The notes beneath the pieces were generated by a model. The model had not been told where the DNA came from and ran no database searches. It saw only the letters and a list, made by a program, of their open reading frames with translations. Below, one piece after another: positions 12,795 to 50,220 of a stretch of DNA of 64,000 nt. Position 1 is the stretch's first letter. Each line of letters starts with the position of its first letter. The DNA comes from Lepraria neglecta (Eukaryota; Ascomycota; Lecanoromycetes; Lecanorales; Stereocaulaceae): NCBI GenBank assembly GCA_033220425.1, contig CM065647.1, positions 310,001 through 374,000 of the forward strand, given 5' to 3'. Both the position numbers and the translations under genes were made by a program.

Positions 12795-12796
12795 TA

Positions 12797-12853
12797 CTCG
12801 TATTGACCCCCTACTCGGCAGTACCCTCTACTCGGCAGACGCTAAGCCTAATT
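12797..12853 (+). repeat. Left terminal inverted repeat of transposon A (57 bp)
   Basis: It is the exact reverse complement of 30028-30084. It contains the 11-mer ctactcggcag twice within 30 bases, a likely paired transposase-binding site. TA lies directly outside. Confidence 0.95.
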
Positions 12854-12929
12854 AGGCCAACCATCTTTAAAAATAGCAATGTACTCATGCAATTGCCACT
12901 ACTCAAGGGCATCACATAACCAGACGGCC

Positions 12930-13538
12930 CAATTGGAGCTCTATAACACTATCGGAGGCAGTGGGCTAGTAGTAGAAGAAGGGCTCGTATCCGGAATAAC
13001 TATAGCTCATGTTAAGGATGATCTTATAAGCTTCACAGAATTCGATAGCTTCATTCGTAATATGTAATTGATGGCTGTCGAATATAAGCATTCTGTATTT
13101 ATCATTTAAGCCTTCTCGCTTCGTAAACTAGTGGAAGCACTCCCTTATCCATAGCAGGCCTAATTCGTTATCTATCCAGCCATTCTCGCTGTATATAATA
13201 TAGCCCTAGACCTTCTCTTTACTAAGTGCTTCCTAGTAGACTATTTATTGTTGCTTTCCTTTAAAGATAATCCAGGGCCGAAGAAGTCTTCCGTCGAGCG
13301 AAATTAGCTTAAGGAGAGACACCTATTCCCGATTACCATAATGGGTTATATATAGTTAGATAGCATATTTTAAGATAACGTATTTGACCTTCTTCAGAAC
13401 TCCAAGCATAAAGCCTTTTTCGTCTATATTATATATATCCTAGTCTTCTACTTTATACTGCTGCTTTATTATATAGTAGAGCTCGAACTAATAAGCTATC
13501 GTTCCAGGGTCGCTGGCAATATTATTCCTGTCTTTATC
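12930..13538 (-). pseudogene. Transposase A remnant, DDE catalytic part
   Basis: The minus-strand reading gives DIYNIDEKGFMLGVLKKVKY (first catalytic Asp region), then ENGWIDNELGLLWIRECF and MLIFDSHQLHITNEAIEF (second Asp region), the order seen in pogo/Fot5-type transposases (DDE_1 superfamily). Several in-frame stops are present, mostly TAG/TAA where Trp or Gln is expected. The third catalytic region is missing. Confidence 0.8.
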
Positions 13539-13540
13539 TA

Positions 13541-13595
13541 GAAGTTATCCCGGCCCGACGACACCTCCGGCTCAGCGACACCCTACACGAAAAAA
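13541..13595 (+). repeat. Left inverted repeat of transposon B
   Basis: It pairs with the reverse complement of about 29440-29494. The shared core is cgacacc-ccggc-c-gcgacaccct followed by acgaaa-atcat-aaa. The motif cgacacc is repeated within the end. Confidence 0.8.
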
Positions 13596-13612
13596 TCATC
13601 AAATTTTCAATC

Positions 13613-15155
13613 ATGGATTACTCTACCTACAACGCTCGTATTAATCTCGCAGTCACTGATTTGCATCAGCAAGAGAAGCCTAATTTCAAGGCTACCGCTA
13701 GAAAACATGCTGTCAATAATACGACCTTGAAACGCCGATACCAACGCCGACAGCTGTCCAAGCAAGCTGCTTCTTCCGAATATCGCTAATACCTTACTTT
13801 CGCTCAAGAAGAGACCTTAATAGGCTTAATCAATAGCCTAACCGATCGTGGAATACCTCCTACTAGCCAAATTGTACGCAATTTAGTACAAGAGATAATT
13901 AGCCGGCCGGTAGGGAAGAACTGGACTGGCGATTTTGTTAAGCGCTATAAAACTAGGCTTAGAAGCCTCTATCTACGAAATATCGATAGCTAGTAAATGA
14001 AAGCAGAGTATACACCTTTATTCAAGTAATTCTATAACTTAGTAACTCTTCTAAAGTATTAGTTAGTTAGATTACTAATATTTAATACAGCTAATCGCCG
14101 CTATCAAGAAATATAATATTACCGGCGATAATATCTATAACTAGGATGAAAAAGGATTCGTGATTGGCCAAGTAGGTACTACACAGCGTATAATAAGTAG
14201 GGAAGCCCTTAACAACGGCCGTATTATATATATAAGTCAAGATGGAAGCAGAGAATTCATTAGCTTACTTATATATATTAACGCTACAGGAGCTACTCTC
14301 CCTCTATCACTTATCTACAAAGGTGAATCTATACTATAAGATATATGGCTAGAGGACTAGCTACCTAAATATATAGCCTATTTCGCAGTCTCATCAAACG
14401 GATAGAGTTGTAATACTTTAGGTCTTCATTAGCTAGAAGTAATATTTTACTATTATATAAGCAAAAGAGCCGGAAGAGGATATCGTTTATTAATTGTCGA
14501 TAGATATAGTAGTTATATCAACCTGAAGTTCATCGATCTATATAATAAACTACGTATTCTCGTGTTAGTTTTACCTCTACATTCAACGTATTATTTGTAA
14601 CCTCTTGATATATCCCTTTTTGCGCCTTTAGCGTCTTATTATACTAAGGGTCTTAATAAATTAATAATAAATAGTCTAGCTATAGTCTCTATGTCGAAAA
14701 GAGCCTTTTGGAGTATCTTCTAGCCTACTTGGCAGAAGGTATTTATACCTGTAAATATCGCTTCCGGCTTCGAAAAAACTAGCATTTAGCCCTATAATCC
14801 AGCGATAACTCTAGATAAAATTACTAAGCCGACTCCGACCGAAGCCCCTTCAATAGTAAAGATACTAATAATATATTGTACTATCCGCCGAGTCTAACGA
14901 TAATACTATAATTAACCGAATTCACCTTTGCTTAAGAAGCTTTTTCGAGTAAATAAACGCCTTACTTCTTAGTACTTAGTAGACTAATATATTATTAAAG
15001 GCTTAATAGTATCCCTTAGGAATAAAAAGAAGAAGAGACAACGTAGTAAATACCTTGATCTGCTTAGTAAAGAAGATTCTAGGCCTTAATTCTTTAGCCT
15101 ATAGCGAGTATAAGCTACCCGTCAATTTTAAGCTATAAAAGACGCTAAAGAAGTA
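13613..15155 (+). pseudogene. Transposase B remnant, main part
   Basis: From an ATG at 13613 (MDYSTYNARINLAVTDL) the frame reads a helix-turn-helix (ATARKHAVNNTTLKRRYQRR), a CENP-B-like region (LTDRGIPPTSQIVRNLVQ), then YNWDEKGFVIG with the first Asp (near 14150), RLLIVDRYSSYINLKFID with the second (near 14490), and LVLPLHSTYYLQPLDISLF. This is a near full-length pogo/Fot1-type DDE transposase. Stops interrupt it, mostly TAG/TAA at expected Gln/Trp codons. It is cut at 15155 by the LTR element; the remaining tail is at 28968. Confidence 0.85.
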
Positions 15156-15664
15156 TGTTACGATTAGGAAACATGATTAGGGATGCGCTCATGGAGCGTA
15201 GCGCCTGTCATAGTTCGAGTCGACGAGTCGGTGTCCGACTCGGACAGACCCTGAAGGCTTAGCATGTTAAGCGATGAGTGTAGTGGTCGTAATAAGCGTA
15301 GATGCGATCAGTGCGATCAGTGCGATTAGGAAGGCTTGGCATGTTAAGCGATGAGCGTAGTAGTCGCAATGAGCGTAGATGCGATCAGTGCGATCAGTGC
15401 GATCAAGAATGCTTAGCATAGATTTCGTATGTCTATATATACGGAGCACTGCTCACCACTTGGAGCATCGTGCTTAACTTGCTATTCAATTGTCTACTAT
15501 ATACGATAGATCTCTTAGGCTAGGCACTGAATATATATTATCTAATCATATACCAGACCCGCTTAGCATCACTTGAAGCCTACTTTATACTCTTATTAGG
15601 TTGTACCTCTATCCCTATTAAGAATCAATCTATAGAACTACCGCACGCAACGTGGTTCGTAATA
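15156..15664 (+). repeat. 5' LTR of element C (509 bp)
   Basis: Same length as, and colinear with, 28454-28962, with differences that are almost all transitions. It begins tgttacgattagg and includes a 77-bp tandem duplication (units at 15253 and 15330). Confidence 0.93.
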
Positions 15665-16210
15665 CTTTGAGTACCCTTAAGGATAAGTACTATACTAAGA
15701 GACCCTAGGGTACCTACCCTAAGCTCCTTAGGAGGAGGAAGCGGATAGAGACGCCCTACTATTAACAAAGGACTTAGTAGGTATATTAAGATAGCCTAGC
15801 CCGACTTATACTATAGAGAGAGAGATAAGCTCGAGGGATAGCTATCCTAGGTATTATTATATCTAAAGTTCTAAGGGGACCTTATACCTATATAACGATA
15901 TCCTACCTTCGCTATCACTTACTTATATAGGAGAGCCTAAAAATAGGTTAATCCGTTCCTAAAAAAGTATATAGAAGATAATAACGAGGATGGTAAGATC
16001 AAGTAGTAGATAGAAAGTATAGTAATATTTAGGCTTAAAATCCGCTATATATTCGGACTATCTAACGAAGTCAATATAGCGATATAAACTATCTAGTACT
16101 TGACTTAGAAGAAGTCTGTATCGGAATATTCGACTTAGTTCTAGTAGTATATAGCGAAGACTGACTAGGATGATAACGTATTAATAACTATATACTAAAG
16201 AGGTCTAAAG

Positions 16211-16623
16211 TGTTAGAACCCTTGGTTCTGACAGGACTGTCCTGTAGGACAAGGCACTATAGACAGGACTAGCAACTGAAGCGATGAGCGCAACGAGCGC
16301 CGTGCGCTCATGGCGCTCAAGAATGATGAGCGCAATGAGCGCCGTGCGCTCATAACGCTCATGGAATGCTTGGCAGGATTTCATATGTCTACATATACGG
16401 GGCTTTGCCCACTGCTTGGAACAGCGTGTTCAACTTGGTTAATCTTCCTAGTACTCCCTGTACTATACTTTACTAGTTATTAATATAGAATATATTGACT
16501 ACCTATCCTAAAGAAGACTGCCATTCTACCTGAGTGACTCCCCTCCTACAGAAGTATAAGATATACGACGCCCAAACCTGGTTATCGCACCGTTAGGTAA
16601 ACGACTAGACGTAGGTCGTAACA
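16211..16623 (+). repeat. 5' LTR of element D (413 bp)
   Basis: It pairs with 22338-22750, starts tgttagaacccttggtt and ends gtcgtaaca. It holds a 42-bp tandem duplication (units at 16283 and 16325) rich in gagcgc palindromes. Confidence 0.95.
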
Positions 16624-19600
16624 CTTTGAACACCCTAAGGGATGAGTTCTTCAACAACTTCAGGCAGAAACCCTACCCTAAGCACCTTAATAGTTACTAG
16701 CTAGAGACGCTATACTATAGACGAAGGATCTGGAAAAAGGATTAAGGTTACAGTACTAGACCTATACTATAGAGATAGGGATAAGCTTGAGCCATAGCTT
16801 ACACAAGTATAACTGTACCTTCTATTCCAGGGAGACTTGCTCCCGGCAACTAGATATACTACCTTCGCCATATTATACCTACGAGGACGGGCCTAGAAGT
16901 AGGTCGAACCTTTCCTAAAGAAGTATATAGAAGACGACGACGAAGACGGCGACGTTAAGTCTTGGATAGAGAGTATACCAAAGTTCATAGTCGAAATCTG
17001 CTATATATTCGGACCTTCTAACAAGGTAAATATAGTAATATATATTATCCAATATATAAAGCAGAAGAAGTTAGCGTTAGAGTTTTCAACTTAGTTTCAA
17101 ATATACGCGACTAAAATAGGCTAGGATAATAATACGCTGATAATGATATATTATTATAGCCTTAAGGATAATATTAAAGACGAGCTTATAAGATTTGGAG
17201 GAGTAATTAATACTCTAGACGGACTTATCGAAAATACGATTAAGATTAATAATAAGCTATTTAAATAATCTATAGAGAAATAGTATAACGGAGGAGTTAG
17301 CGGAACCTGATATAAGGGATTCTTCTTAAAGACGAGGAATTACCGATAAGATTATAGGGAATATAATACTTACTATAGTATAGTGCTAATAGAGATTAAC
17401 TTTATTTAGATAGGAAAGAAGAAAGGAAACTTTAAAGGGAAAAAGCAGCACGGGGGAAAGAAAGTAATTACTTACTATAGCTATAGCAAACTAGGTTATA
17501 TAGCTAGAGACTGCAGGTCGAAGAATATAGTATACCGACTATAGATTAACGCAATAGAAGGAGGACCTCTAGATAACGAGGAAAACTCCGTAGAAATATG
17601 GCTACTCTACGATATAGAAGAATTGAAATAGGATTCGGAAGATAATACCTTCGAATCAGAATTCAATAAAGAAGTATAGAGGTATTACTATAGGGATAGT
17701 AATAGATCTTAATAGTACGAGACGGATCAGGAATAACGGAAAGCTAGTCTAGAGAGACTAGTATCGATACCCGAACCTAGATCTACTATATCCTAAGTAG
17801 AAGGAAAATTACTAGAAATTAAAGAACCTTAATTGGATAAAGACGAATATAAACTCTTTGATAAAATCGAAAACAAAGTATAAGGTATATTAAATAAGTA
17901 ATTATCTGTAAAACCCAAATGGGACGAACCTATACAAGACTATCGATACGATAGGGAATATTAGTAATATAGCGAAATTCTATATACTAAGTATATATTA
18001 CCCGATTATTTACTATATAGAGAAGAAAGGGGCCGTTTAGCGAAAGAATACACGGTACCCCTACTTAAAAAAGCTTACTATAGAGAAATATAGTAGTATA
18101 AGTATAAGGAAGATAGGTACTAATAGTATCTTACAAGCAAGAGGAAGTATTACTACTTCCTATACTTTATAGAAAAGTAGGAAAAGGAAAGAAATAACTC
18201 GCTTAAAGTCTTTAAAAGAGGAGCTTATAACTAAGTACTATAGTATAGCTACCTATATAATAAATATATTCTATATAAGGGTATAAAAGAAGTATACGGC
18301 TTCCTACTATTATAGGGAAAAGAGTAATCTCTTATACTATAGGGAAGTATAAGGAGATTAATACGTTATTCCCTAAATAACAATTATATTCCGCCTAATA
18401 CCATACTTACATTTTTATACTAGTGAATATTAATAGATAGCGGACTATAGCGATAATAGACAGCGGAGCTACAGGAAATTTCATCTTAAGGAACTTAGTG
18501 GACTCAAGCGGCCTACTAGCCCGAAAGAAGAAATTATCTTATAAGCTACGCCTAGCTAACGGGTTAGTATTCTTAACAGGAAAAGTAGAGGAGGAAATAC
18601 TCTCCCTACTAGTAATAATTCAATAATACTACAAGGAGATTACATTCGATATAGTTAGGATAGCTATCTATAATATTATTTTGGGAATACCTTAGTTAAA
18701 TAAATATAACCTAGAAATCAACTAGAAGACGAAAGTACTTAAATTCGGATGATCTAGAAACGTTACTAGTATTAGACCTATTAGTTAATAGTAGACAATA
18801 ATAGATAAGAGAAAGAACCGAAGACCGGTTAAAGTATATATTACTTTATTCTTAAATAATAAGAGTAACTTCTAAGAGAGAAGGCTCGACTCCTTAGTTA
18901 CTAGTAAAGGTTAGTAGGATACTAAAGAGAGAGCTATTAGAGGAAAAGACGAACCTTCTGCGATCCCTCGGGAATATAAATAGTAGGTATACCTATTCAA
19001 GGAAGAGACGAGCGTAAAAGCGTTGCCTAAGTACCAGCTATAGGATTATAAGATCGAACTCGAACCTAGCAGGGCGCTAATATTTAGACCTATCTATATA
19101 TTATCGAAAAAGGAACTTACTATACTTCGCGGGTATATCGACGAGAACCTTAAGAAAGGATTTATTCGGGAATCCAAATTACTAGTAGGTTACCTAATCC
19201 TCTTCGCGCCGAAGAAGGACGGAAGCTTAAGACTATACGTCGACTATCGAAAGTTGAACGACATTATAATCAAGAATAGGTATCCTTTACTAAATATTAG
19301 CGAGCTATAGGATCGGCTCAGCAAAGCAAAGATATTCACAAAACTAGACCTTAGGGGCATATATAATCTAATCCGGATAAAAGAGGGCGAAGAATGGAAA
19401 ACTGCCTTCCGGACCAGATATAGCCACTACGAGTACTTAGTAATACCGTTTAGGCTTACTAACGCACCAGCAACCTGCTAAGTACTTATTAATAATATTA
19501 TACGAGTATACTTAGATCGAACAGTGATAGCGTACCTTGATAATATCTTGATTTACTCTAAGAAAAAGGAAGAATACGTTAAGTATATACAGGACGTTAT

Positions 19601-22337
19601 CGAATACCTATTATAAGCGGGACTTCTCCTTAAACCGGAAAAGTGCGAATTTTACAGGGACTCTATTAAGTTCCTAGGATTTATAGTTAGTATAAAAGGT
19701 ATTAGTATAAGCCTAGAAAAGATCAAAGCTATAGCGGAATAGCCTATACTATAGGACGTTAAAGTAGTATAAAGTTTCTTAGGATTTACTAACTTTAACA
19801 GGAAGTTTATTAAGGGCTACTTAAAGAAAGTACTTCCGCTTATAGATATTACGAAAAAAGATATTGGATTTATATAGGGACAAGAATAATAAAAGTCGTT
19901 TGACACATTAAAAAAAGCATGTGCGGACCTACTAGTGCTCTATACCTTTCAAGCTAACGAACCGGCTTATATCGAAATAGATACCTCGGATCTTGTAATA
20001 GGAGCGTGCCTTTATTAAATAAAGGACTAAAAGTAGTATCTAGTTACCTACTTTTCACGAAAAATGTTAGTAGTAGAGTAGAACTATAATATATACGATA
20101 AAGAACTACTTGCCGTAGTATATATACTTCAGAATTAGAGAGTATACGTAGAAAGCTGCTCGGACCTAACTATCTTCACGGATTATAAGAATCTTCTTAA
20201 TTTTATAATAACGAAAGAGCTAAATAGAAGATAAGTTAGATAGTTAGAACTACTCGGACAATATAAGTTCAAGATAACCTATACCCTAGGAAAAGATAAT
20301 GGTTAAGTAGATACGCTTAGTAGGCAATCGGACTATATAGAAGAAAAGAACGTTATAGAACGACCAATCCTAAAACGAGAAGCCGATGGATCATTAGTGC
20401 CGTATCAAGCATTAGTAATAACCCTTCGTATATCAGGACCTAATATAACTGACAGGATTGTAAAGGCCTACTATAACGATATATTCGCAATAAAGCTACA
20501 AAGGGATCAACCGGATTTAGTATTACTTAGATATCAGGAAAAAACTTATTTACCTAATATATACGTTGAAGAAGTAATCAGGGATTACTACGACGACCTA
20601 CTACAAGGTTACCCTGGAATTTCTAAGACTATAGAACTCCTAGGACGAGGATACGCAGCGCTAAAGCTACAAACGCGTATTAAGCAATATATTAAAGAAT
20701 GTATCTAGTGCCAGTAGAACAAGTCTATACGATACGCCAAGTACGGATAAATATAGTTTGCACCTATACTAGAGTTACTATAGGATGATGTCACAATGGA
20801 CTTTATAGTCAAACTACTACCTTTAAAGGATCTAGCTACGCAGGATATCTTCGATTTAATTATGGTCATTGTAGATAAACTTATGAAATATATAATTATA
20901 ATACCTTTCAAAGAAATATACAAAGCGGATTAGTTAGCCTTTATATTACTTGACAAGTTAATAAGGGATCACGGTATACCCAAGTCGATAATATCCGATA
21001 GAGACAAGTTATTCACTTCCAACTATTGGAGAACGCTGATCGCAGCGATTGGGACTAAACTCCAGATGTTAACGGTATACCATCTATAGACTAATAGGCA
21101 AACGGAACGTGCAAACTAAACAATGGAAGTATACTTAAGATATTATGTAAACCTAAAACAAGATAACTGGGTTTCACTACTTCTAATGGCATAGCTGGCG
21201 TATAACGACAGTCAGACACGACAGGCCTGACACCATTCTTTGCTAACCATAGGAAGAATACAAACACATTTCTGCAAACTAGGGACGGACCCAACGTAGA
21301 AAAAGCCTTGGTTAAGGTAGAGGAGCTAAAGGAATTATATAAAGATATATAAAAGATAATCGAAAACTCGAATAACAAGTTAAGGGAACGAATCAATAAT
21401 AGAAGAAAGAATGTTCCTCAGCTTAAAGAGGGGGATAAAGTATACCTCCTAATAAAGAATATAAAGACAACGAGACTAAGCAAGAAACTAGATTATATTA
21501 AGGTCGGACTATTCTTGATTAAGAAGGTAAAGGGGGCCGTTAACTATAAACTCGAGCTTCTACCTGACGCCAAAGTATATCCGGTATTCTATATCTTACT
21601 TCTAGAGCTAGTAGACTCTAATATACTACTCTAAGAAACGTTTCATTATAATATTAAGGAAGAAATAGAGTATAAGGTCGAGAGGATCCTAGATAGAAGA
21701 AATCAGTTCTATCTGGTTAAATAGAAAGGGTATAATAAAACGGAAAGTACCTGGGAACCTCTTAGGAACCTTGCGGGGAATTGCGGGGAACGCCTATAAG
21801 AGTTTTATCGGAGACAAGAGAAGACTAGTTAAAACTCTCGGGGCCCTCTAGGCCGGGGAGGAGGTTAAACTGCTCGGAGCCGATATTAAATATTAAGCCG
21901 TTAGGAGTATCAGAAGGAAGGTTTTTATCCTTCTCTAACTCCTTAATATTCTATAACTCGCGCTTAACTAACTTTCTCTCTTTATCCTAGACTCGATCGA
22001 ATTATAATTAGAGACGTATAAGTTTCGCCTGCGTTTCTTTTATTTCTAACCAAGTATCGTTATATACTTTCTTAATACGATATATCTCATCGACGGATAT
22101 AACTAGGTTATACTTCTTGCCCGTAGCGATATAGTTAGAATAATAATCTGAACGGACACCTACTAAGCACTGCCTGTTACCCTTTGTACAGAGAGTATAA
22201 GGACGTATTACGAATCTAGATAATTTACTAGAGAGCTCTTTGCGACGAACGATAGGATCTTTAGAATAGATATTTCGACGAGGAGGTATAAAGGATGGAT
22301 GGTTTCTCGGGACGAGAAATCTAGAGGAGGGGGCTAG

Positions 22338-22750
22338 TATTAGAACCCTTGGTTCTGACAGGACTATCCTGTAGGACAAGGCACTACAGACAGGACTAGC
22401 AACTGAAGCGATGAGCGTAACGAGCGCCGTGCGCTCATAGCGCTCAAGAATGATGAGCGCAATGAGCGCCGTGCGCTCATAACGCTTATGGAATGCTTGG
22501 CAGGATTTCATATGTCTATATATACGGGGCTTTGCCCACTGCTTGGAACAGCGTGTTTAACTTGGTTAATCTTCCTGGTACTCCCTGCACTATACTTTAC
22601 TAGTTATTAATATAGAACGTATTAACTACCTATCCTAAAGAAGACTGCCATTCTACCTGAGTGACTCCCCTCCCACAGAAGTATAAGATACACGACGCCT
22701 AAACCTGGTTATCGCACCGTTAGGTAAACGACTAGACGTGGGTCGTAACA
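22338..22750 (+). repeat. 3' LTR of element D (413 bp)
   Basis: Same length as the 5' LTR and aligns without gaps. It is followed directly by TAAAG. Confidence 0.95.
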
Positions 22751-22776
22751 TAAAGGATAACGTCAAGGACGAACTT

Positions 22777-23297
22777 CATCAGCAAATCGGGAGCACCGGC
22801 TTAGGGTCCAAGGGGCTAGCCCCGGGCGCTAGGGGCCGATCTGCCCAAGTGCCAGCTCACGGGAGCTAGGGGCACCCCCACCGTGCTAGGGGTGCTAGGG
22901 GCTGGTCGGGCTGGTCGAGCTGGTCGAGCTGGTCGAGCTGGGCCCTACTGAACTTTTTCGCAATGCACCTATAAGGTATACGCCCATACGCCTGTAGGTA
23001 CGCGCCTCCCCTGTAGGCCCTGTGTACGCCCCTCCGCGAGAACTTTTCGCGCTGAATCGAATGCGCGTAATGCGCATTCGCTGGCGTTGATAGGTGGCCC
23101 TCTAGGGGCCTCCCGTTGTTGTTGGCGATTATAGAACATCGCAATTTTGGCAGCTCGAGCGGCTCGACCAGCTCGAGCAGCCCGAGACCGTGCGGAATCA
23201 GCCCGAGCAGCTCGAGGCCGTGCGGAATCAGCGCCTAGCGCCCGGGGCCGGCCCCTTGGACGCCCGATTTTAGGACGCCGCTCCGGATTTGCTAATG
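22777..23297. mobile_element. Element E: GC-rich foldback (MITE-like) insertion in C
   Basis: A 521-bp GC-rich island inside the AT-rich gag remnant of C. The ends form an imperfect inverted repeat (cat-agcaaatc-ggagc), and a 27-bp inner arm at 22807-22833 (tccaaggggc...gcgctagg) is repeated inverted at 23234-23260. The centre holds a ggtcgagct array (about 22911-22940) with a related inverted array at about 23153-23215, so most of the element could fold back on itself. TT flanks both sides (22775-22776, 23298-23299). Skipping the element rejoins DEL to IRSG, the sequence seen at the same place in element D. The open frames inside it look like by-products of GC richness. It shows no RIP-type decay. 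Confidence 0.8.
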
Positions 23298-26200
23298 TTA
23301 TAAGGTCAGGGATTATCCTTAATACCCTTAATAAACTAATCGAAGAAGTAATTAAAATTAATAATAAGTTATTCGAAAGGACTATAGAAAAAAGGTACAA
23401 CGGAGGAGTCGGTAGGATAGGATACTCGAGCTTTTTTACTAAATCGAAGAGCTACTACCCAGGTTATAAAGAATGTAACCCTTACGGACTAGCGCTAATA
23501 GAACTAGATTTCACGGAGAAGAAAGGTAAATAGGCCTTTAGAGGGCTAGCTAGGGGTAAGAAGCAGCAAGGGGGTAGAAAGAAAACACTTATATATTATA
23601 GCTATAGTAAACCGGGCTACTTTGCTAGAGACTATAAGTCGAAAAATATAGTATATCGACAGCAGCTAAATATACTAGAAAAGGTACAGGACCAGGATAG
23701 TAATTCTAGTAGAATCTTACTAATATAGAACGAAGTCGACGGCTAGTAACTAGAAGAAGAATCTAACTTAGGAGACGAGGAGTTCTCTAACGACAGCTTT
23801 ATAAATAAAGCTAATACTTAGATAGGGAAGCTATATATTAGAGATAGTAGTAATGCCTAGGGAAAGTAACCTAAGTAGGATTAGGATAAGGAAGAATCGG
23901 AATAGGAAGTTATAATTAAAAGAAAAGGACTACCGATAATATCTGAACCTAGATCTACTATATCTAAGGAGAGAAGAGAATACTTAGAGGAAGAAAGACT
24001 AAGAGAATTCTAGAACGAAGTTAGTATCTTAGACTTTAGGTATAACTACTATTACCCTAAATATAAGGAAGTCTACTAGAGATAGTATATAGAGAATAGT
24101 TATAACTATTATAGAATTAATTACAGAAAGGAACTAGGAGTTCTAACAAAATCATCCTGTAGTAATTACTAGTACTACAAGTGTAAGGATAATAGATACC
24201 CTTAGTACTTAGTAAGAAAATGATAACTAAGCTACTTCCTACGCAAGAAAGACGAGGAAGAAATATACTATAGAAACTAAATAAGACGCTGGAGTCTAGA
24301 AGCAAACTAGTACTACCTATAATAGTAGTATATATATTTATACGACGACTACAAGAAATACAAGTTCGAGAAATAACTTACAGGATTCCTCCCCGTACAG
24401 GGAAAAGAGTAATCCCTTATAGCAGGGGTAGCCATAAGGAGATCAATATATTAACCCCTAAATAATATCTGTGTTCCGCGCAATATAATACATATATAAA
24501 AATACCGGTAATCGTTAACGGACAGCGGACCGTTGTAATAATAGATTCTAGAGCTACTAGAAATTTCATCTTACGAGATCTAGTACGGATAACTAGAATA
24601 CTAACTCGGAAGAAGTTATACTAGTATGATCTTTAGATAGCTAACGGGTTAATACTATTAATAGGAAAGGTAGACGAAGAGATACTTTTATTACCTATTA
24701 TAATTCAGCGCTACTATAAGGAGATTACCTTTAACGTTATTAGAATAGCTACCTATTATATAATTTTAGGAATACCTTGGTTAAAGAAGTATAACCTAAT
24801 AATCGATTAGGCTCGAGGAGTACTTAAGATAGATTAATCCGGCAATATTACTAGAATTATACCTACGTATTAGTAGCGTTTAATAGTAGATAAGAAGTTG
24901 AACCGAAGACCGGTTGAGGTATATATTACCTTAGCTTCGCACAAGGACGGTACTAAAAGGTAGTCCGACTCTATAGTTACTAGTAAAGGTTAGCGGGATA
25001 ATAAAGTAAGAGATAAGGGAGGAACTAATATACCCTCTATCCCTCGGGAATATAGTAAGTAGGTATACTTATTCGAGGAAGAGACGAATATAGAAGTATT
25101 ATCTAAGTACTAGCTATAGGATTATAAGATTAAACTCGAACCTAGTAAGTAACTAATATTTGGACCTATTTACGTATTATTAGAAAAGGAACTTAAAGTA
25201 CTTCGCGGGTATATTAACGAGAACCTCAAAAAGGGATTTATTCGGGAATCCAAATTACTAGTAGGTTACCTAATCCTCTTTGTACTAAAGAAGGACGGAA
25301 GCTTAAGACTATATATTAACTATCGAAAGTTAAACGATATTACTATCAAGAATAGATATCTATTACTAAATATAGGAGAGCTATAGGATCGGCTCGGAAA
25401 AGCAAAGATATTTACTAAACTGGATCTTAGAGGCGTATATAATCTAATTCGGATAAAAGGAGGCGAAGAATAGAAGACTACCTTCTGAATAAGATATAGC
25501 TACTACGAGTACCTAGTAATACCGTTTGGACTTACCAACGCACTAGTAACCTGCTAAGTATTTATTAATAATATTATATGAGTATACTTAGATCGAACAG
25601 CGATAGCGTACCTCGATAATATACTAATTTATTCTAAGAATAAGAAAGAATATATAGAGTATATATAGGATGTCCTCGGATGCCTATTATAAGCGAAACT
25701 TCTTCTTAAACTAGAAAAGTGCGAATTCTACAGGGAATTAGTGGAGTTTCTAGGATATATAGTTAGTATAAAAGGTATTAGTATAAGCCCGGAGAAGATT
25801 AAGGCTATAGCTAAATAGCCTATACTATAGGACGTTAAAGTAGTATAAAGCTTCTTAGGATTTGCTAACTTTAACAGGAAGTTCATCGAGGGCTACTCTA
25901 AGAAGGTACTACTACTAACAGATATTACGAAGAAAGATATCGGGTTTATATAGGGAAAAGACTAATAGAAATCATTTAATATATTAAAGAAAGTATATAC
26001 GGATCTACTAGTACTCTGTACCTTTTAAATAAACGAGCTAGCTTGTATCGAAACGGATATATTAGATCTTGTAATAGGAGTATACTTATACTAGATAAAA
26101 GACTAAAAATAGTATCTAGTTACCTACTATTTAAGGAAGATATTAGTAGTAGAATAGAACTATAATATACACGATAAGGAGTTACTTGCCGTAGTATATA

Positions 26201-28453
26201 TACTTTAGAACTAGTAAGTATATATAGAAAGCTACTTGGACTTAACTATCTTTACGAACTATAAGAACCTTCTTAACTTTATAATAATAAAGGAGTTAAA
26301 TAGATAATAGGTCCGATAGTTAGAACTACTAGGTCAATATAAGTTTAAGATAACCTATACTCTAGGGAAGGATAATGGTCGAGTAGATACCCTTAGTAGG
26401 TAATTAGACTATATAGAAGAGAAGAACGTTATAGAGCGACTAATCCTAAAGAAAGAAGCGGACGGATTATTAGTACTATACTAGGTATTGGCTATGACCC
26501 TTTATATAACGGGATCTAATATAACTAACAGGATTATAAAGGCCTATAAAGACGATATATTCGTAATAACCCTAAGGAAGGATCAGCTAGATACTATATT
26601 GCTTAAATACTAGGAGAGGACTTATCTACCTGAATAATATACTAAAGAAGTAATTAGGGATTACTATAACGACCCTTTACAAGGTTACCTAGGAGTATCT
26701 AAAATAGTAGAACTCCTAGGACGAGGATACGCGGCGCCGAAGCTTCGAGCGCGCGTTGAATAATATATTAAAGAATATATCGAGTACTAGTAGAATAAGG
26801 CTATATAATACGCTAAGTACGGATAAATATAGTTTACTCCTGTACTAGAGTTACTATAGGATGATATTATAATAGACTTTATAGTTAAACTACTACCTTT
26901 AAAAGATCCAGCTACGCAGGATACCTTTAACTCGATTATGGTTATTATAGATAAACTTATAAAATATATAATTATAATACCTTTCAAGGAGATATATAAG
27001 GTAGACTAGTTAGCCTTTATACTACTCGATAAGCTGATAAGGGATTATAGTATACTAAAGTCGATAATATCCGATAGAGATAAACTATTTACTTCTAACT
27101 ACTGGAGAACGCTAATAGCAGTAATTAGAACTAAACTTCGGATATTAATAGTATATTACCTATAGACTAATAGATAGATAGAACGTGCAAATCAAATAAT
27201 AGAAGTATACCTGAGATATTATATGAACCGGAAGTAGGATAACTAGGTTTTACTACTTCCGATAGTATAACTAGCGTATAACGACAAGCGGTTAGATATA
27301 ACCGGACTAACCCTATTCTTTACTAACTATAGAAAGAATATAAATATATTTCTATAACTAAAGGAGGGACCTAATATAGAAAGAGCCTTAGTTAAGGTAG
27401 AAGAGCTAAAGAATTTATATAGGGATATATAAAGGTCTATTAAGAGCTCTAATAAGAAGTTAAAGGGATAGATTAATAAGAAAAGAAAGAATATTCCTTA
27501 GCTAAAAGAGGGGGATAAAGTATACCTCCTAATAAAAAATATAAGGACAACGAGACTAAGTAAGAAACTGGATTATATTAAGGTTAGACTATTCTTAATT
27601 AAATAGTTAAAAGGACTAGTTAACTATAAACTCTAATTACTACCTAACGCTAAAGTATATCCGGTATTCTATATCTTACTCTTAGAGCTAGCGGACTCTA
27701 ATATACCTCTCTAAGAAATATTTTACTATAATATTAAGGAAGAAATAGAGTTCGAGGTTAAGAGGATTCTAAATTAGGTTAATTAGAAATATCTGGTTAA
27801 ATAGAAAGGGTACGACGATACCGAAAACACCTGGGAACCCCTTAAGAACCTCCGGAACTGCCAGGACCTTCTATAGGAGTTCCGGGAATGATCGGGAAGG
27901 AGGACCAATTGGTTCCGGCTAGGAAGCCAAATTGTTCGGACGAGACGTTGAATATCTAATTATTAGGAATACTTGGGACAGACCGCTAGTCTTCTTCTAA
28001 CTCCTTAATATTCTGTATCTCTCGGTCTATAATCTTCCGCTTTTTATTTTCAAGATGTTTATACTATATCTAAAGGTACGTTAGCGTAGTCTAAAGATAT
28101 ATAGATTCCTCTATTGATTTTTATATATGATCCTCGAGCTCTTCGCGTGTATTTTTTAACTATAACTACGCTTCCTTTCGTTCCGTCTTAATATGACGTA
28201 TTTCGAGAGGCGATACTATAAGGTCGTATTTCCTACCGCTGCCCACACAGTTAGAATACCTATCGGACCCTGTACCTATCAGGCACTGTTTGCCGCTGGT
28301 AACATATCGGGAGTACGGCCGTATAATAACTTCGTTTAGCTTACTGGCCAACACCGTTCAGCGGACGGTCGGTTTATCTGAACGTTTAGTACGTCGGGGT
28401 AGTATAAAGGATGGATAGTTTCTTAGGACGAGAAATCTGGGAGAGGGAGCTAA

Positions 28454-28962
28454 TATTACGATTAGGAAACATGATCAGGGATACGCTCATAGAGCGTAGC
28501 GCCTGTTATGGTTCGAGTCGACGAGTCGGTGTCCGACTCGGACAGACCCTGAAGGCTTGGTATATTAAGCGATAAGCGTAGTGGGCGTAATGAGCGCAGA
28601 TGCGATCAGTGCGATCAGTGCGATCAGGAAGGCTTGGCATGTTAAGCGATAAGCGCAGTGGTTGTAATAAGCGCAGATACGATCAGTGCGATCAGTGCGA
28701 TCAAGAATGCTTGGCATGGATTTCGTATGTCTATATATGCGGAGCACTGCTCACCACTTGGAGCATCGTGCTCAACTTGCTATTCAATTGTCTACTACAT
28801 GCGATAGATCTCTTAGGCTAGGCACTGAACATATATTATCTAATCATATACCAGACCCGCTTAGCATCACTTGAAGCCTGCTTCATACTCTTGTCAGGTT
28901 ATACCTCTATCCCCATTGAGAATCAATCTATAGAACCACCGCACGCAACGTGGTTCGTAACA
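28454..28962 (+). repeat. 3' LTR of element C (509 bp)
   Basis: Partner of 15156-15664, ending ggttcgtaaca, followed by the AAGTA duplication. Confidence 0.93.
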
Positions 28963-28967
28963 AAGTA

Positions 28968-29330
28968 CTACGACAGCAGCAAGCCCTTGATAAAAAAGCT
29001 TTAGCAGCTACTAGAAAGGCTTAAAAAGAGGAGGATAAGCTATATAGGGCAATACTCGCTACCAAAAGACGTTAACTCGCTACAGAAGCGTTAGCCCAGA
29101 AAGCTACAGATAAGCAAGCTTAAAAAGAGCTAAGAGAAGCAGCAAAACACTATAGCGCAGGGCAACTAAGCTTAAACAAGCAATCTATAAAGCTTCCAAA
29201 AGCTTAAAAGACTCTTAAGAAGCAAGTAAAAGGGTCTAGTTATACTATCGTCGCATTACAAGTCGAGGAGGTGATTTTAGCTACATCTTATAGAAGGAAG
29301 GTTCAACGCCCACGGCGCTTTGATATATAA
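28968..29330 (+). pseudogene. Transposase B remnant, C-terminal tail
   Basis: Plus-strand reading of a Lys/Ala-rich tail (KVLRQQQALDKKALAATRKA, KATDKQAQKELREAAKHYSA), typical of the basic coiled-coil C-terminus of Fot1-type transposases. It continues element B after the LTR insertion. Confidence 0.65.
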
Positions 29331-29439
29331 GGATTCTGGGCTCAATCATTATATATACACCTTCTATCTACTACATATTTAATTCTAAACTCACCAATTG
29401 TTACAGTTGTTAATTGGTGACGAATATAGTATTTTAATG

Positions 29440-29494
29440 ATTTCGTCAAAAGGGTGTCGCCGGGCCGGGGGTGTCGCCGAGCAGGGATTACGTC
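29440..29494 (-). repeat. Right inverted repeat of transposon B
   Basis: Reverse-complement partner of 13541-13595, with mostly transition differences. It is followed by TA at 29495-29496. Confidence 0.8.
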
Positions 29495-29496
29495 TA

Positions 29497-29810
29497 TAGG
29501 CGAGAGGAATTTCGATTTCAGATCAGGATAGCGACTCAAGAACTTATCGACCCAGTAATACCCTAGATCCTTTGTATAGCCTCTTTTTCGAAGTATCTGC
29601 TAAGCTATTGACCGTAACTGTATAATCCTTGGTGGCCACCCCTATTTGCCGAGTTGAATTATCTATCTTATAATAGCAGCTTCTTCTGCTGGCGATAGCA
29701 ATTGCTGTTCTTGGCGAGCTTCCTGCTTGATTTCTTCCCCTTGATTCGATCTTAAAGAGTACTCTGACTGATCTGGAACCGAATAGCGATCTAGTAAATA
29801 GGTTCAGGTT
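29497..29810 (-). pseudogene. Transposase A remnant, N-terminal DNA-binding part
   Basis: The minus-strand reading includes LLSPAEEAAIIRQIIQLGK, then WPPRIIQLRSIA and YYWVDKFLSRYPDLKSKF, matching the CENP-B-type helix-turn-helix of pogo transposases. It reads directly into the catalytic part at 13538 once element B is left out. Confidence 0.75.
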
Positions 29811-30027
29811 ATGGTATGCTAATGTTTTTGGAATAGAAGTCCAATGCCAGCTGTATTCTTTGCTCTTTCGGGAGTTCTGGAGGGCCTGTCTAGAGGTCTT
29901 CTGTATCCTGTAGGTCGGAAGGAGGGGAGGGAGGGCCGTGGAGCATTAATGAGGCCATGTTAGTGGCATTGAGTGGGTGGAATGGAGGATTTGAATAGAA
30001 AAATCGGTGTTTTGGACTAGGTTACCA

Positions 30028-30084
30028 AATTAGGCTTAGCGTCTGCCGAGTAGAGGGTACTGCCGAGTAGGGGGTCAATACGAG
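30028..30084 (-). repeat. Right terminal inverted repeat of transposon A (57 bp)
   Basis: It is the exact reverse complement of 12797-12853 and is followed by the TA target duplication at 30085-30086. Confidence 0.95.
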
Positions 30085-30086
30085 TA

Positions 30087-47928: not shown

Positions 47929-48857
47929 TCATGTCCGAGTACGGGTATGGGTCTCCACCACTAGAAACAGAATCAGTCGTCTCTCGTACCCGTTATAGAG
48001 CGCATATCTCGGGCATAAGACCAAACCCTCGAGCTCCTTCTCGCTCTCCTCATCGCAAATTTCACAACAGTTCCTGGACCGAGACCACTCCCGGAGTAGC
48101 AAATCAGACGCAAATTGCGGCGTGTCTGCCACAATTTCCTGGGACTTAGCCTTCACTATAGCATTTTTGTAGATTTCATCCTTCCTCTGCTTGGTATGCA
48201 CAAGGGCAATATCCCTCAATCCGCGGTTATTCTCATGCGTAGTATCGTATATCAACGGTACAGTCTCAAGGAACGGCACCAGGAGTTCTTGTATCAAAAG
48301 TGGCATCAGAACCTTATGGTGCTTGTTTTTCGCTAAATCTTCCAGCGCGGGGATGTCGAATCTATCGCCCATGTCATACATAGAGACGTGGTACAATAGC
48401 CTTCGCTGTGCAGCCTCGCCGTATCGAGCTTAGGCTTCTTCGTCCACTTCGCTTGGGTTAGAGCCGCTGTCGTCGAACCAGGGTATGGTTGATGTCCCTT
48501 CATTTGACCGATCTTCATTGGACTGGCCCTCAGTTTCCTTACCATCGTTGGGCTCGATCCTGGTGGTTTCGGTCGTTGCGGCTCGTCATCCTTTGATTCG
48601 GTGCCGATGTCGGGATAGTCGCCGCGGTAGAGGAACAGAAGCATGGCTTCGATGAGTTGTTGATCCTCAGTGGAGAAATCGATTGTGTTAGTCATGGACT
48701 CTTTGAATCCGGCACTGCAAATGCCCCTAAGGACCTTCGATTGCGAGCAGACTACGACTTTGTGAGCAGTGATCTCCTTGTTGCTGCAGAAGATTTTGAC
48801 ATCGCTGAAATCTTTGTTGTCATAAAACCTGTTCAAATCAATACGTATGACTTTCAA
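47929..48857 (-). CDS. BTB/POZ-domain protein 1, C-terminal Cys cluster
   Basis: Fungal BTB/POZ protein. The first coding exon present starts near 48830 with FYDNKDFSDVKIFCSNKEIT, AHKVVVCSQSKVLRGICSAG and IEAMLLFLYRGDYPD. The frame then changes; an intron (GT after SSPTM, near 48543, to a 3' AG before CTCGATACGG, near 48432) would restore LLYHVSMYDMGDRFDIPALE. After the BTB and linker helices comes RNCCEICDEESEKELEGLVL and CPRY, a cysteine cluster. No ATG opens the first exon: the open frame to 48857 starts at TTG, so a 5' exon probably lies upstream (MSDKMRMSSPSK, near 48910, is a candidate). It is the neighbour and paralogue of the BTB gene at 49253-50220. Confidence 0.7.
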
Positions 48858-49252: not shown

Positions 49253-50220
49253 TCAACACAAAAGTTGCATGAAGTCCTCACAAACGATCATTCGTTGAGC
49301 CCCCAAATAGTACCTCTTGAGGTACTTTCTCGCGCATTGCAGGCATCGCGGCGCATCTTGCAAGTTATTGTGGCAGTCGTGGCAGGGATTCGAAAAAGCG
49401 AGCCCTCCTCAGCAGGACGTCGACCGCAACTTGTTGAGTTGTGAAGTATATTTCCTTCGAAGCGAGCTTTGGCCATGAAATCTTCAGTAACAATTTTTCC
49501 TGAGACATAACGTATCCGACGACGCTGTCACGGAGTTCGCAATTGCTCTCCGGCGTAGTTACGTAGATTTTTGGGATGGATTCGAGAAATGAGATGGTGT
49601 CATCCTGAGTCCAGTGTGGCTTGGTGGATTCTTCGTATTTAGCCTTTACAAGCTCGCCTGCAAATAATTGAGAGTCAGAACTTGCCTTTCAGGTTTGCGA
49701 TTGAGTAATTAAACAAGGTTCGGGAGCATATCAAAGGCAAAATCCCGACCATTTACTCACGAGAAATAATCTCACCACTCAGATTGCAGTACGTATCAAG
49801 GGTGAAGTACTCCGAGAATGTATATACCTAGGGTATGGATATTGAATCTGTCGGCCATAGCAAACATGTCGACATGATAGAGGAGCTTCACTAGCTTGGT
49901 ATCTTGCCCATATTCACCTTGGCCGGAGTGAGGTGGTTCATCGGGGTAATCGCAGCGGTAGAGGAATGTGACCATCGCTTCGATGACTTGCTGTTCCTCG
50001 TTGGAGAGGTCGATCGTGCTGGTCAAGGACTCCTACCATGGGTAAGCCTCCATTTCGGGGAAGTTGGCATCCAACTGTTACAGACCTTGAAGCCAGCAGT
50101 ACAGGAGGCCTTATACACCTTCGATTGCGAGCATAAGACAATATCGTGGGCGTTGATGACCTTGTCTTTGCATATGATCTTTATATCGGAGAACTGCTCG
50201 TCGTTAAAAATCTATATTAA
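49253..50220 (-). CDS. BTB/POZ-domain protein 2, paralogue of the preceding gene
   Basis: Minus-strand blocks in order: NDEQFSDIKIICKDKVINAH and DIVLCSQSKVYKASCTAGFK (50217-50093), an intron, then STIDLSNEEQQVIEAMVTFL and YRCDYPDEPPHSGQG. LLYHVDMFAMADRFNIHTL follows, then further introns to a C-terminal exon (EESTKPHWTQDDTISFLESI). The last segment CHDCHNNLQDAPRCLQCARK has a CxxC-x10-CxxC pattern, but it lies one frame away from the preceding VDVLLRR segment near 49410, so a small frameshift or unplaced splice is present. No starting ATG was found, so it may lack its first exon. Function as a substrate adaptor is a family inference. Confidence 0.6.

Follow-up and report, generated by a model that had tools for sequence, protein, structure and literature searches.

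A nest of five transposable elements in Lepraria neglecta and the distribution of repeat-induced point mutations along its two LTR elements

Architecture of the nest

The window analyzed in this study is a 64,000-bp stretch of the Lepraria neglecta genome (G000:C2:310001-374000, contig CM065647.1), and the genome searched for related copies comprises 42.0 Mb on 11 contigs. Window positions 12797-30084 hold a block of five transposable elements (TEs), here designated A to E, which lie one inside the other. The outermost one, A, is a 1,332-bp terminal inverted repeat (TIR) element on the minus strand, composed of 12797-13540 and 29497-30084 and flanked by TA at 12795-12796 and 30085-30086. It is interrupted by B (13541-29494, on the plus strand like all elements that follow), a 2,142-bp TIR element with TA at 13539-13540 and 29495-29496. 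B in turn contains C (15156-28962), an element with long terminal repeats (LTRs) at 15156-15664 and 28454-28962 and the target-site duplication AAGTA at 15151-15155 and 28963-28967. Two elements are located within C. The first is the LTR element D (16211-22750; LTRs at 16211-16623 and 22338-22750), which is bordered by TAAAG at 16206-16210 and 22751-22755, and the second is the 521-bp element E (22777-23297) with TT at 22775-22776 and 23298-23299. D and E are 26 bp apart, and the stretch that separates the duplication of D from E (22756-22776, plus strand) belongs to C according to an alignment with nine other C copies.

Boundaries were read in the window sequence and then settled against other copies of the elements. 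The initial annotation, made from the sequence of the window, had described five nested elements with their own ends and target duplications, and all of the coordinate sets, TIRs, LTRs and duplications are indeed present; each junction of the block bears an exact target duplication. The approximately thirteen-fold expansion of A that it reported (17,288 bp compared to 1,332 bp) is likewise correct. The LTR pair of C in the window is 92.5% identical and that of D 95.9%. Matching 5-bp duplications surround 10/10 C pairs and 6/6 D pairs tested.

The arms of A (12795-12856 and 30025-30086) are 98% complementary over 62 positions. When arms were sought over 3 kb, that of A matched at 59/60 positions and that of B at 36/44, compared to 29 and 24 for the best of 30 dinucleotide shuffles. 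The 30-base end of A (three mismatches or fewer) occurs ten times in the genome, and these occurrences form five inverted pairs, while the reversed control pattern gave none. The initial annotation had considered that the inverted repeats at 12797/30028 and 13541/29440 might be due to chance; this concern can be dropped in view of these searches. The five pairs are the one in the window (17.3 kb), C3:5024407-5034712 (10.3 kb), C8:3912024-3922430 (10.4 kb), and two at 1,333 bp, so three of them, including that of the window, enclose large inserts. Two other A copies (L002 and L003) have TA at both ends.

Empty sites and order of insertions

According to the initial annotation, the removal of each guest restores the sequence of its host. 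Paralogous empty sites bear this out; the counts given here apply among the matches listed, with the best 40 candidates scored per arm search for the A/B site. There, the left arm matches up to the site at 19 other places, and at 15 of these the right arm follows without a gap or overlap. Four empty sites were read directly, namely three of these 15 and the copy on contig C7. The peptides encoded there on the minus strand, FLSSIDKDRN, FLSPIDKNRN (twice), and FLSPMDKDRN, each differ by one residue from FLSPIDKDRN, the transposase read-across proposed for the A/B junction, and none contains a stop. For the B/C site, 14 other right-arm places were considered, with the window and one partial match of 75% identity left out. 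Twelve of them share exactly four bases with the left arm, which is the overlap expected for a five-base duplication given the query cut points. Five B/C empty sites were read directly, and uninterrupted B copies, for example C5:1619731-1621872, span 2,142 bp. The D and E sites are both empty in all nine other C copies whose 5' side was compared, and these copies run straight through. After subtraction of D, E, and their duplications, the spacing of the C LTRs in the window amounts to 6229 bp, compared to 6228-6235 bp in nine other C pairs; the pairing L038/L011 (15.6 kb), which represents a second 3' LTR for one 5' LTR, was left out of this comparison.

Several observations weigh against an undisturbed nest of insertions. 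Four of the 19 A/B places are not exact; three of these are contiguous but start from the third base of the right arm, and one has no right arm among the matches listed. Similarly, two of the 14 B/C places deviate, one by a small offset and one by having no adjacent left arm. The insertion of A itself is supported by its TA and by the TA around the two other A copies, and the empty sites of the inner elements are paralogous sites of the same genome. Moreover, the block was read from the assembly, not from sequencing reads. Since all five elements are repetitive and assemblies fail in repeats, the block could in principle be a product of misassembly or consist of repeat fragments that lie side by side by chance. 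However, this would have to account for the exact duplications at every junction, the subtracted LTR spacing of C, the unoccupied sites found for each guest, and the exact pairing of the A ends, and we regard it as barely credible. We are therefore highly confident that five independent transpositions into one locus are nested here at base resolution.

The succession A, B, C is secure, and the arrival of both D and E after C is supported, as had been proposed. D and E cannot be ordered relative to each other, because the 26-bp spacer between them holds no informative difference. In the course of events that we envisage, A would have inserted first, into unoccupied DNA. B lies in the putative transposase remnant of A, C entered B, and D and E entered C 26 bp apart. 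B, C, and D may have transposed before they were broken at this locus, or they may have been mobilized in trans. The stack offers a clean, checkable insertion history and a calibration case for the annotation of nested TEs.

Identity of the elements

Fot1/pogo-type elements of filamentous fungi have a TA duplication, TIRs, a Tc5-type helix-turn-helix (HTH), and a DDE_1 transposase. B resembles them in all four respects. It matches HTH_Tnp_Tc5 over the Pfam cut-off and DDE_1 at 1.1e-9 in a stretch translated with stops shown as X, and because both domains occur together with the TA duplication, B looks like a Fot1/pogo-like element with a broken transposase. In contrast to the known type, its TIR is imperfect (36/44). 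A is probably, though weakly so on its sequence, a Fot1/pogo-like remnant with a putative transposase remnant on the minus strand. It is short; its Tc5-type HTH match reaches 14 bits, below the Pfam cut-off of 22.2, and a second piece of A scanned against Pfam had no match.

Fungal LTR retrotransposons of the Gypsy (Ty3-like) type carry TG..CA LTRs and generate a 5-bp target duplication, and C and D share both features. D looks like a Gypsy-type element. Its integrase zinc-binding and Tf2-1-like SH3 pieces exceed the Pfam cut-offs, its reverse transcriptase piece lies just below (27.5 bits, cut-off 29.6), and the reverse transcriptase piece precedes the integrase and SH3 pieces, the order of reverse transcriptase and integrase being that of Gypsy elements; two of the five D pieces scanned against Pfam had no match. 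The pol region of C is 79% identical to that of D over 3.5 kb, which suggests that C is probably a Gypsy-type element related to D, although none of the three C pieces scanned had a Pfam match over the cut-off. Unlike intact Gypsy elements, C and D contain many stop codons and are strongly affected by repeat-induced point mutation (RIP); no complete frame was seen in either.

The initial annotation was silent on the identity of E and on the RIP gradient along the LTR elements described below. Two other full-length E copies exist in the genome (99% and 97% identical), with the 2-bp duplications TT and CG. TA or TTA as the duplication of E is ruled out by the nine other C copies (TT) and by these two E copies (TT and CG). 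Ends of the E type also bound elements of approximately 14.4-14.65 kb at C8:170583-185235, C3:619849-634502, and C1:3311690-3326061. The relative at C8:170583-185235 (L075, L087, and L088) is flanked by TA and RIP-mutated. One of its pieces between stops, L088:2902-3111, matches the Pfam family Plavaka (PF18759) with 31.2 bits at a cut-off of 26.3; among the ten pieces of this relative that were scanned, there was no match over the cut-off besides Plavaka. In a genome-wide search, Plavaka matches fell inside all three E-ended intervals; the 14 genomes used as controls gave none. All 84 Plavaka matches listed are interrupted by stop codons, so that none of them is an evident source of transposase for E, although its two other full-length copies are 99% and 97% identical to it.

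PlavakaB transposons have been described with CATCA..TGATG ends and target duplications of 2 or 3 bp (PMC12730594). E is similar in its CATCA left end, present in the window and in its copies, in its 2-bp duplication, and in the Plavaka match of the long relative. It differs in its right end, CATTA, which is one base off the PlavakaB pattern, and in being a 521-bp miniature in an ascomycete, whereas the families described there derive from reconstructions in Agaricomycotina. The best reading of E is that of a miniature non-autonomous PlavakaB-type element, which presumably arose by deletion from the long Plavaka elements.

RIP in the nest and LTR divergence

RIP takes place during the sexual cycle and depends on RID or DIM-2. 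That RIP is the mutation process at work in the nest, as had been assumed in the initial annotation, agrees with the C-to-T bias at CpA in the repeats. The 10-kb flanks on each side of the block have a GC content near 0.5 and show no RIP signal. Composite RIP indices, calculated with segment borders that deviate from the final ones by a few bases at most, were 1.07 to 1.56 in the interiors of C and D and -0.48 to 0.66 in their LTRs; B reached 0.71-0.80, A -0.14 to 0.22, and E -0.16. Copies of C and D carry CpA-to-TpA mutations, many in their interiors and fewer in the LTRs. E is nearly unmutated, and it may be shorter than RIP detects, have arrived late, or both.

The C LTRs of the window differ at 42/513 sites; 38 of the differences are transitions, and 36 of these transitions lie in CpA/TpG context. 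Likewise, the D LTRs differ at 20/417 sites with 18 transitions, all 18 in this context. As the differences are almost all of the RIP type, LTR divergence is not a clock and is ruled out for dating insertions here. The description of the block as a dated stack can consequently not be retained.

RIP gradient along the LTR elements

We examined how mutations are distributed along C and D in the best 30 LTR matches of each, taken from 672 (C) and 538 (D) first-look candidates; the sample is therefore not random and covers two families of one genome. The D locus L049, of unclear side, was left out of the bin and quarter counts, and the window's own 5' C copy was left out of the bin count. In 125-bp bins along the 5' LTR of nine other C copies, the mutated fraction of CpA/TpG sites increased from 0.08 at the outer edge over 0.12 and 0.35 to 0.53 at the inner end. 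It was 0.53-0.86 in the adjacent interior, while other C/G sites remained at 0.002-0.05 throughout the 5' side. The 3' side (20 copies) mirrored this picture: the fraction was 0.52-0.85 in the interior and fell to 0.39 where the LTR begins and to 0.15-0.19 in its remaining bins (other sites 0.01-0.10). Interior values are too low, as sites mutated in every copy escape the bin count. D showed the same shape in a weaker form, with 0.25, 0.23, 0.50, and 0.53 in the 5' LTR and 0.33, 0.21, 0.30, and 0.11 in the 3' LTR, the last value being derived from three sites. Changes in other contexts amounted to 0.05-0.39 in D, because this family is more diverged.

When the LTRs were divided into quarters, the values for C were 0.11, 0.14, 0.35, and 0.57 in the 5' LTR and 0.36, 0.19, 0.17, and 0.19 in the 3' LTR; for D they were 0.29, 0.21, 0.39, and 0.44 and 0.34, 0.27, 0.25, and 0.28, respectively. 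The same LTR sequence is thus more mutated on the side that faces the element interior, strongly in C and more weakly in D. The inner part was more mutated than the outer part in 25/30 C LTRs and 19/29 D LTRs. In the window, three of the four LTRs follow this pattern, the exception being the 3' LTR of D (outer 0.32, inner 0.18). For C, the crossing statistic was higher than in any of 2000 label shuffles, and for D one of 2000 reached it; the shuffles ignore relatedness.

The C LTRs (L009-L038) cluster by side. In 10/10 pairs, and for both sides, the nearest neighbor of an LTR was the same-side LTR of another copy and never its own partner. We attribute this clustering, which can mislead trees and dating based on LTRs, to RIP striking the inner ends. 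It could also be expected if an already mutated element had been copied at the DNA level, so that the gradient would not reflect RIP by edge distance after insertion, and a changed first dinucleotide common to 16/20 C 3' LTRs points in the same direction. However, the C LTR columns that contrast most between the sides are all transitions in CpA/TpG context, and D LTRs mostly pair by element, the own partner being nearest for 6/6 5' LTRs and 4/6 3' LTRs. In addition, the 5-bp duplications of the ten C pairs are individual to each pair, which indicates separate integrations. On the strength of these independent duplications we reject DNA-level copying of a mutated C element and consider it improbable that the gradient originated in this manner. 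The LTRs of one element are identical at integration. Because separate duplications mean separate insertions with identical LTRs at the outset, position and not sequence best explains the difference between the LTRs. Position likewise accounts for the grouping of C LTRs by side and for the mostly element-wise pairing of D LTRs.

The outer ends of LTRs carry the integrase recognition sequence, and many LTR copies are available as possible donors. The gradient might accordingly be caused by selection or gene conversion preserving the LTR ends, or by the chromatin around the copies, instead of by the geometry of RIP. In C, the mutation of the outer edge indeed tracks flank GC content (rho -0.49, p 0.006, n=30). 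Yet D shows no such effect (rho 0.07, p 0.71, n=29), and one and the same sequence carries more mutations where it faces inward in the opposite LTR, which protection or conversion based on sequence does not predict. We judge these causes unlikely, if less so than copying. Instead, we are inclined, with moderate confidence, to think that RIP in this fungus depends on the distance from the element edge and fades over approximately 500 bp, so that the outer ends of the LTRs largely escape, whereas the identical sequence facing inward is mutated. An LTR pair serves as an internal control for the way in which RIP is distributed along a repeat. If the dependence on edge distance is true, each full-length LTR element would come with a paired control of its own, and genome sequence alone would suffice to read off the length over which RIP decays in nature.

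At the new edges of the window's C beside D and E, no RIP dip was found in comparison with nine uninterrupted copies. To the left of the D site, the mutated fraction was 0.69 over 160 bp (0.60-0.88 in the uninterrupted copies) and 0.85 over 541 bp (0.52-0.89); to the right of E, it was 0.69 over 400 bp (0.41-0.80). This absence fits with RIP of C before the insertion of D but is no proof of it. Shielding of A by nesting had no clear effect when the window copy was compared with the uninterrupted copies L002 and L003; it was more mutated than L002 (24 versus 4 sites and 15 versus 1) and less mutated than L003 (3 versus 46 and 1 versus 46).

Outside the block, a flanking gene encodes an ADE2-type protein, whose best named match is from Stereocaulon virgatum (85% identity) and which also has a 97% match to an ENA protein; these matches point to a lichen-forming Lecanoromycete as the most likely host. 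The gene region to the right contains a 92-bp direct repeat of 78% identity at 48610-48701 and 49941-50032.

Comparison with known systems

A partial literature search, which included PMC10787394, PMC10294615, PMC12543289, PMC7296669, and PMC4858203, yielded no report matching the RIP edge gradient, which does not prove its absence from the literature. According to one of these studies, full copies show a higher prevalence of RIP than solo LTRs, and the evolution of LTRs differs from that of internal regions (PMC10787394). In Zymoseptoria tritici, new RIP mutations are reported to cluster distally in LTR elements (PMC10294615). RIP is thus non-uniform along LTR elements in both cases. However, the new mutations are distal in Z. 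tritici, whereas the accumulated mutations are fewest there in L. neglecta; the two studies measured different quantities.

The nested stack itself is ordinary. The outer flank adjoins another piece of A to E in 23/59 C or D LTR loci (10/30 for C and 13/29 for D), a count that includes the window's own four LTRs and excludes a D locus whose side is unclear. Among these abutting cases of C or D, five consist of LTR fragments only, so that not all of them are clean nests. A comparable situation exists in another lichen fungus, Cladonia rangiformis, for which nested, RIP-mutated TEs have been described, the later ones often of higher GC content (PMC12542154). Both genomes combine strong RIP and nested TEs with sharp borders to gene space; in the portion seen, the Cladonia account gives neither insertion-by-insertion empty sites nor a gradient within LTRs (PMC12542154). 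Overall, nesting is common here and known in a lichen fungus, and it is the gradient, not the nesting, that is the less ordinary point.

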